Shown piece by piece: positions 22,366-24,399 of a stretch of DNA of 49,648 bases. The stretch spans positions 1 to 49,648 of the forward strand of contig NZ_WJSQ01000002.1 of assembly GCF_009720245.1 (NCBI RefSeq), written 5' to 3'. A model generated the notes under the pieces. That model was not told the origin of the DNA and did not search any database. It worked only from the letters and a program-made list of their open reading frames with translations. Each line of letters opens with the position of its first letter. The first letter of the stretch is position 1. The position numbers and the translations under genes were made by a program. The DNA comes from Sphingomonas segetis. Its GTDB lineage: Bacteria; Pseudomonadota; Alphaproteobacteria; Sphingomonadales; Sphingomonadaceae.

Positions 22366-22605
22366 TTAGAGTCCTGCCCGGTCGTCCGTCGTCGAGTAGG
22401 GTTGCTCCTGGATGCTCGTATCGACGTCGATCACCTTGTAGAAGATGCAGCGCGCGAGAAGGCCGCTGATGAGCAGGTAGGCGGCGAGGACCACCATGAT
22501 GATCGTCGCCACGGGCGGAAGCACGCCGAGATAGGCGAGGACCGCGAGCCCAATTGCGAGAACGATTCGAACGACCCGGTCTTCCGGTCCGACATTCCTG
22601 GCCAT
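22366..22605 (-). CDS. DUF2892 small membrane protein
   Basis: This 79-residue protein starts MARNVGPEDRVVRIVLAIGL. It has two hydrophobic helices (VVRIVLAIGLAVLAYLGVL and ATIIMVVLAAYLLISGLL) followed by ARCIFYKVIDVDTS with a single cysteine. This is the DUF2892 (YgaP transmembrane-domain-like) pattern, where the domain often sits beside rhodanese or sulfur genes. Here it lies 66 bases upstream of the metC-like gene on the same strand, so the two may be co-transcribed. The function is unknown. Confidence 0.82.
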   Translation of the reverse strand: MARNVGPEDRVVRIVLAIGLAVLAYLGVLPPVATIIMVVLAAYLLISGLLARCIFYKVIDVDTSIQEQPYSTTDDRAGL

Positions 22606-22745: not shown

Positions 22746-22783
22746 TCAAAAGCAAACGCCCGGATCGACCAGCGATCCGGGCG
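22746..22783 (-). terminator. Strong intrinsic terminator on the minus strand
   Basis: An 11-bp perfect stem CGCCCGGATCG (22757-22767) / CGATCCGGGCG (22773-22783) has a 5-base loop. On the minus strand it is followed at once by GTTTGCTTTTG. No annotated gene ends here: the genes on both sides read away from the gap. It must therefore stop a transcript that begins inside the gap. Confidence 0.75.
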
Positions 22784-22926
22784 CCGTGCGTGACGATTGC
22801 TCGTCAGCCCCCTTGGATGTGCCGCGGCCAGAATCCCCAGGACGCGATCAGCCCGTTCCCCAGCACGAGCGTTCGCGACATCCCGGCCGCCACCCGAACC
22901 CGGCCCAAGAGCCATGCGTTCGGATG
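22746..22926 (-). ncRNA. Candidate small RNA or attenuator leader upstream of DUF2892
   Basis: The 470-base divergent gap between DUF2892 (start 22605) and proS (start 23077) holds an ordered set of signals on the minus strand. These are a promoter-like GTGACA (22961-22956), a 17-base spacer and TACTCA (22938-22933). Next comes a long-range stem, GGATGT+CGCG at 22883-22874 with CGCG+ACATCC at 22826-22815 (a 2-base bulge). A 6-bp hairpin with a GCAA tetraloop follows at 22806-22791, then the strong terminator. The product would be about 180 nt. It could be a free-standing sRNA, or an attenuated leader of the DUF2892-metC pair 140 bases further on. A 60-codon frame (22915-22733) runs through the terminator and is not believable. 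Confidence 0.5.
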
Positions 22927-23076
22927 GAAATTTGAGTAGGACCCTGCAGAAGCGCTGTCACGCCGGGAAATTGACGCAGGTTGCTTTTTCGTCGCTGCTG
23001 TGTCGGTGGGGACACATGACATGAGCCCGGCAGCTCCGGTTGCACGCCCGGTGCTGTGACCCTACAGCGCGGCGCC

Positions 23077-24399
23077 ATGCGCTGGTCCCGAGCATTCCTC
23101 CCCGTTCTCAAGGAGAGCCCCGCCGACGCGCAGATCGTCAGCCACAAGCTGATGCTCCGCGCAGGGCTGGTGCGCCAGACCGCCGCCGGCATTTATGCGT
23201 GGCTGCCGCTCGGCTTCCGGGTGCTCAAGAAGATCGAGCAGATCGTCCGCGAGGAACAGGACCGCGCGGGTGCGCAGGAAATGCTGATGCCGACGCTCCA
23301 GTCGGCCGACCTGTGGCGCGAGAGCGGCCGGTATGAGGCGTACGGACCCGAGATGCTGCGCATCCGGGACCGGCACGACCGCGAGATGCTCTATGGGCCG
23401 ACCAACGAGGAAATGATCACAGTTCTCTTCCGCGATGAGGTGAAGAGCTACCGCGATCTGCCGCGCACGCTCTACCACATCCAGTGGAAGTTCCGCGACG
23501 AAGTCCGGCCGCGGTTCGGCGTGATGCGCGGGCGCGAGTTCCTGATGAAGGACGCCTACAGCTTCGACCTCGACGAGGCGGCCGCGCGGCAGAGCTATTA
23601 CACGCAGATGCTGGCGTACCTGCGCACCTTCCAGCGGATGGGGATCCGCGCGGTGCCGATGAAGGCCGCGTCGGGGCCTATCGGCGGCGACCTGTCCCAC
23701 GAGTTCATCGTGCTTGCGCCGACCGGCGAGAGCGAGGTGTTCTACGATGCGGCGTACGAGGAATTCGATTGGAACCAGGCCGGCCTCAACTACGGGGACG
23801 AAACAGGGCTGCAGGGCCTCTTCGACCGCGTGAATTCGACCTATGCCGCCACGGACGAGACGCACGACGTCGCGAAGTGGGAAGTGTTGCCCGAAGGCAA
23901 CCGCCGCACAGGGCGCGGGATCGAGGTCGGGCACATCTTCTACTTCGGCGACAAATATTCGAAGGCCATGGGGCTCAAGGTCTCGGGCCGCGACGGCACG
24001 CCCGTCACGCCCATGATGGGCAGCTACGGCGTCGGCGTGTCGCGCCTCGTCGGAGCGATCATCGAAGCCAGCCATGATGACGCAGGGATCGTCTGGCCCG
24101 AGGCGGTTGCGCCGTGGCAGGTCGGGATCGTCACGATGCGCGCTGACGACGGGGCGAGCGTCGCCGCGGCAGACTCGTTGTACACCGAGTTGATCCGCGC
24201 CGGGGTCGAGGTGCTTTACGACGACCGCGACGAACGCGGCGGCGTCAAGCTCGGCTCGATGGACTTGATCGGACTGCCCTGGCAGGTGGTCGTCGGTCCG
24301 CGCGGCATCGCCAGCGGCACTGTCGAGTTAAAGCGCCGTTCAACCGGCGAGCGCGAGGAGCTGAGCCTCGAAAGCGCGCTGGCGAGGCTGACGGAATGA
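23077..24399 (+). CDS. proS: Prolyl-tRNA synthetase (short alphaproteobacterial type)
   Basis: This 440-residue class II synthetase charges tRNA-Pro. It begins [20 protein letters not shown], the usual start of the short ProS2 form. Motif 2 is [22 protein letters not shown], given as RDEVRPRFG and [13 protein letters not shown], and motif 3 is in [16 protein letters not shown]. It lacks the YbaK-like editing insertion of the long bacterial form, as expected for the short type. A GTG at 23056 would add seven residues not seen in the family. It is followed by lolC across a palindromic element. Confidence 0.97.

Follow-up and report, generated by a model that had tools for sequence, protein, structure and literature searches.

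The ar families (ar7, RF02342, and ar14, RF02344) are trans-encoded sRNAs of the Alphaproteobacteria that end in Rho-independent terminators. In a sphingomonad, Zymomonas mobilis, the Zms sRNAs have been confirmed by northern blotting (Table 2 of PMC6970203, in the portion consulted), and BLAST hits in sphingomonads are given for the Paracoccus sRNA 'intergenic 60' in the consulted part of PMC5107571. The sponge sRNA CrfA of Caulobacter crescentus, as described in excerpts of PMC12559287, uses a G/A-rich loop to capture the UUUCCUCCCU seeds of the alphaR8 sRNAs SisA-D. Our literature search yielded little on Sphingomonadales sRNAs outside Zymomonas.

The window studied here is the whole stretch of 49,648 nucleotides from Sphingomonas segetis (contig NZ_WJSQ01000002.1). 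Its minus strand, between a YgaP-like/DUF2892 gene and proS, shows the layout of a free-standing sRNA gene, with a promoter, about 180 nt of structured RNA and a Rho-independent terminator. Sequence comparison indicates that a small folded RNA gene of this type is carried by most of the family members searched, often at the same spot. We take the predicted sRNA to represent a novel family within an established class of RNAs, absent from Rfam 15 and unrecognised in the literature searched. An earlier note on this DNA had proposed a covariance-model search of Rfam, and no Rfam 15 family was found at the sRNA either in the window or in four Sphingomonas loci; the sole Rfam 15 hit in the gap was a chance snoRNA on the other strand (16.8 bits against a threshold of 49). 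The RNA is likewise undescribed in the literature searched, which included the consulted portions of PMC7064620, PMC6970203, PMC7566282, PMC8632094, PMC5107571, and PMC12559287.

Predicted structure of the RNA and its 3' core

The sRNA is placed at 22748-22926 on the minus strand (∼180 nt), its ends being predicted from the promoter and the terminator. The minimum-energy fold of 22930-22740 reached −95.2 kcal/mol (z = −3.03), and only 1 of 200 dinucleotide shuffles folded equally well. At the 5' end lies hairpin P1 (22891-22926, minus strand; 22926-22918 paired with 22899-22891), which encloses an inner hairpin, GGCUCUUGGGCC. Its outer stem is kept in 11 near relatives that make up the window's clade, where one of the inner pairs shows changes on either side. 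P1 is followed by the predicted hairpin P2 (22824-22890, minus strand; 22890-22880 with 22834-22824), which carries CUGGGGA elements. A P2-type hairpin is predicted in 11 of 11 near relatives, with z-scores ranging from −0.18 (L004) to −4.47; its stem letters change, and in 6 of the 11 the loop is 8 nt long and holds GGGGA, a motif that is invariant across the 11 sequences of alignment A3. The P1/P2 body outside the core differs from clade to clade. A possible pseudoknot between CUUGG in P1 and CCAAG before P3 was seen by eye in the window's own clade only.

The 3' core, AAGGGGGCUGACGAGCAAUCGUCACGCA (22787-22814, minus strand), consists of an unpaired G-rich stretch and a GCAA-capped hairpin, P3 (22806-22801 with 22796-22791), and it is near-invariant in 53 sequences. 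The terminator that follows (22748-22783, minus strand) has a stem formed by 22783-22773 with 22767-22757 and a tail at 22756-22748; a single-sequence scan reported the hairpin as 22785-22755, followed by TTTGCTTTT. Because that scan returned 2 terminator-like sites in 2 kb where 0.8 would be expected, one sequence taken alone is weak evidence for a terminator. Across 53 aligned relatives, however, 6 of the 11 stem pairs have changed on both sides while 97.4% of cells pair, and none of 500 shuffles matched the covariation score. The figures in 33 more diverse sequences were 8 of 11 pairs and 96.7%.

Three helices had been put forward in the earlier note, and they fared differently in our analysis. 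The strong minus-strand terminator, which it had drawn at 22746-22783, is upheld by the doubly changed pairs just described. The GCAA-tetraloop hairpin that it had drawn at 22806-22791 is also present, but it hardly varies across the genus: in the 53 core-plus-terminator sequences every cell of P3 is paired, with four of the six pairs invariant and the other two varying only from A-U to G-U. Given how little P3 varies there, the evidence that it pairs comes from the diverse set of 33, in which 89.8% of cells are paired, two of the six pairs have changed on both sides, and three depart only through unpaired cells. The third helix, a 10-bp long-range stem between 22883-22874 and 22826-22815, did not hold up; it is absent from the minimum-energy fold, where the pairing is instead that of P2, and the stretch corresponding to its 5' arm is a gap in 8 of the 11 near relatives in alignment A3.

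Two departures from this pattern were seen among the relatives. In the Sphingomicrobium-type loci (L045-L056), the terminator loop reads CACCUCCACUG or CACUCCACUG, which is anti-Shine-Dalgarno-like, and the 5' part has CUCGCUCUUC or UUUGCUCUUUCCUUGG in place of the GUUCGGGG motif; the two changes together may represent a swap of the active element. In another locus (L015:∼1170-1360), at least three further tandem copies of the terminator sequence follow the sRNA.

Sixty-six RNA bodies contained 147 G-runs of at least four, as compared to 88 in shuffles (1.7-fold), and the mean unpaired probability of these runs was 0.38, as compared to 0.27 for all G. C-runs were few in the same bodies but were also above shuffles (11 versus 5.6).

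Distribution, neighbouring genes, and the promoter region

When the entire gap was used as the query of a plain DNA search, 56 of 60 further genomes from the genus gave a match. The remaining four (G027, G028, G037, and G050) are 79, 69, 75, and 67% complete, respectively, so these misses may be assembly gaps. The matching part was centred on query positions 265-300, which correspond to AAGGGGGCUGACGAGCAAUCGUCACGCA and the terminator. Among 39 genomes from the order's other families, the same search gave a single weak match (E = 0.004), and it lay outside the core. Scanning genome contigs with a 24-letter core pattern yielded 60 loci, which belong to Sphingomonas, Sphingomicrobium, Hephaestia, other sphingomonads, and one 'Proteobacteria bacterium'.

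Two covariance models extended these searches. The first (R1, built from 53 sequences) had matches at E≤0.1 in 300 of the 396 order genomes searched, the list ending in an extended run of weak scores; 13 weak matches came from families of the order other than the window's own, and outside the order nothing scored above 35.5 bits. The broader model (R2, built from the 33 more diverse sequences) matched 267 of the 396 genomes, in 44 of 84 genera, at E≤1e-4, a count that is partly circular because some of its training genomes are within that sample. Among the R2 matches listed in the order, all were in the window's own family. The class sample serves as the control for R2, and only 5 of its 285 genomes, all from other alphaproteobacterial families, matched at the same threshold (best 38.1 bits), i.e., there was no strong match outside the family. 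With a covariance model made from alignment A2, the sRNA could be annotated in genomes throughout the family. In one metagenome-type assembly with 6% contamination (G045), two copies of the sRNA with proS (L058 and L016) were found on different contigs, reflecting either mixed strains or a real duplication. At another locus (L193), the sRNA homolog adjoins proS in a genome of 2.1 Mb and 46.6% GC, which is probably Zymomonas, and the northern-confirmed Zms sRNAs of Z. mobilis could include this RNA.

The genes flanking the gap had been read as divergent, and profile matches agree. The YgaP-like/DUF2892 ORF (22366-22605, minus strand, start 22605; PF11127, E = 6e-14) lies downstream of the sRNA and is not part of it, and proS, which encodes proline--tRNA ligase (23077-24399, plus strand, ATG at 23077; NF008979, E = 8.7e-215), is the divergent neighbour; the next two ORFs after proS are lolCE and lolD (TIGR02212 and TIGR02211). 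Of 58 genus loci fetched, L036 and L043 did not match the core pattern and were set aside, and in all 56 that had it the divergent upstream neighbour is proS. In 12 Sphingomonas/Hephaestia loci, the divergent ORF is LolC/E-like in 10 and proS in 2. Because lolCE and lolD follow proS in the window, the sRNA can be said to keep its place at the head of the proS-lol gene group. Twelve of 20 weaker R1 hits (36.5 to 61 bits) are likewise divergent from proS (5) or lolC (7), with the same order of motifs, and the other eight have neither gene alongside.

Upstream of the sRNA, GTGACA (22961-22956) and TACTCA (22938-22933), separated by a 17-nt spacer, form a candidate promoter (22933-22961, minus strand) that was read in the sequence and recurs in relatives. 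The generic sigma-70 scan called no promoter and so missed it. The earlier note had picked out the same pair. We counted it in 100 loci, which are related sequences with at least one locus present twice (L033 and L068 are the same contig place): a looser form of the pattern stood upstream of the core in 59 loci, as compared to 0.9 expected from dinucleotide shuffles of the same interval. With a slightly wider interval the pattern was found in 63 of the 100, the −35 element being GTGACA in 47 and ATGACA in 16. For proS, the likely promoter is TTGCAC-17-TACAGC (23040-23068, plus strand), also read in the sequence; transcripts from it would be nearly leaderless, starting within a few bases of the ATG. 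TTGCC/TAG elements resembling this promoter were noticed, though not counted, in relatives.

Between the two promoters lies a palindrome, TGTGTC-N6-GACACA (22999-23016), which is kept in relatives and is likely a regulator site. The 18-bp consensus TGTKKC-N6-GMMACA was found between the divergent promoters as an exact match in 53 of the same 100 related loci (0.0 expected) and with at most one mismatch in 87 (0.5 expected). The window's own genome has four exact sites, as compared to about three from base counting, itself a rough estimate; because this is close to chance, we claim no regulon. Another of these exact sites lies 36 nt before a ClpB-like ORF (L199), and others are near ORFs that we take to resemble exported or outer-membrane proteins (L198 and L201).

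Proposed function of the sRNA and rival explanations

The comparison shows, at the level of sequence, a unit kept family-wide while the downstream gene changes, comprising a conserved promoter, a folded body, a near-invariant core that includes a hairpin of the GNRA type, and a terminator with covarying stem pairs; the same comparison presents it as a transcription unit of its own, with selection acting on the 3' core and the terminator. The earlier note had favoured an RNA of about 180 nt that is transcribed separately and ends at its own terminator, and the conserved core, promoter, terminator, and position all speak for that view. We consider it probable that this is an independent sRNA gene whose product acts in trans, probably with Hfq, through its G-rich unpaired elements. 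RNA polymerase would make an RNA of about 140-180 nt, and its U-rich terminator tail would be expected to bind Hfq. The best candidates for pairing are the unpaired G-rich motifs, namely GGGGA in the loop of P2 and AAGGGGGC ahead of P3; their partners in trans would be C-rich segments of mRNAs or of other sRNAs. The palindrome that separates the sRNA and proS promoters is probably bound by a regulator that sets sRNA output in step with, or in opposition to, that of proS-lolCE. As for the core, its reverse complement, CAGCCCCCTT, has one site in the own genome besides the gene itself, which is below the control count (2), so no obvious target of long complementarity emerges.

Several other explanations for the locus were weighed. 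As an alternative to a free sRNA, the earlier note had named an attenuated leader acting in cis on DUF2892-metC, and in the window the sRNA is indeed on the same strand as both genes. However, among 71 loci for which 1 kb or more of downstream sequence was available, DUF2892 is downstream in only 3, which refutes this as the function of the family, and metC lies no more than about 1.5 kb away in 9, the locus in the window being one of them; the core, promoter, and terminator persist without DUF2892. We thus regard a leader as very unlikely. A small-protein mRNA is hardly more credible and is just as improbable in our estimate: a 60-codon ORF does run from 22915 to 22733 on the minus strand, but its start is not conserved, the ATG being absent at that column from the other ten sequences of alignment A3, and lengths differ freely among relatives. 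A divergent 6S RNA might be suspected because the own genome (a 97% complete draft) has no RF00013 match at E≤10, in the gap or elsewhere. Among relatives, however, 63 of 100 genomes match this family at E≤1, 32 of them above the cut-off, and where both RNAs occur they coexist at separate places, e.g., in G057 (6S at C1:1725184 and the sRNA at C1:1607709), G022, and G007. The predicted fold, moreover, is a row of separate hairpins and not one long rod, and 6S identity is rejected as extremely unlikely. The repeated GGA-containing loops would suit an RNA that titrates CsrA in the manner of CsrB/RsmZ, but CsrA (PF02599) is absent from 21 of 21 genomes, the own genome included, in a search that found it in Escherichia coli, Bacillus subtilis, and Thermotoga maritima; this decoy is rejected, and we put its probability close to nil.

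A sponge or decoy RNA is a further possibility that we judge unlikely. Its Shine-Dalgarno-like G-rich elements would catch sRNAs with anti-Shine-Dalgarno (CU-rich) seeds, for which CrfA, in the consulted part of its description, is a precedent (PMC12559287). Consistent with this, G-runs are enriched, at least two runs of four G occur in 59 of the 66 RNA bodies, and in the 11 near relatives the invariant GGGGA sits in a loop whose stem letters change. However, the mean duplex energy with the alphaR8 core UUUCCUCCCU was −10.3; shuffled bodies gave −10.0 and permuted seeds −9.1, so a sponge for alphaR8 sRNAs shows no specific fit. A bolder extension, which we hold to be quite improbable, is a hub RNA of the whole Sphingomonadaceae: a near-universal Shine-Dalgarno mimic with multiple elements that would soak up anti-Shine-Dalgarno sRNAs, or bind a novel protein specific for G-rich RNA, and that the shared operator would link to the charging of proline tRNA and the export of lipoproteins. 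If true, translation and envelope assembly would be tuned together. Our preferred reading remains the independent, trans-acting sRNA, and a lineage-wide sRNA with a hardly changing core of about 28 nt, a candidate promoter, and an operator that is also conserved makes a convenient starting point for experiments.

Comparison with known systems

The sRNA resembles the ar families in general kind, being predicted to be trans-encoded and to end in a Rho-independent terminator, but no ar family matches it; in 100 relatives, ar7 (RF02342) had no match over the cut-off and weak matches in 30 genomes. Like 6S RNA (RF00013), it is a small non-coding RNA that is retained throughout a bacterial family, and it differs from 6S in fold and in genomic place. 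As for CrfA, we found no link in sequence or position and no specific fit to the alphaR8 seeds; as far as the consulted part of its description goes (PMC12559287), however, CrfA and the sRNA described here are both free-standing alphaproteobacterial sRNAs with a G-rich hairpin loop.
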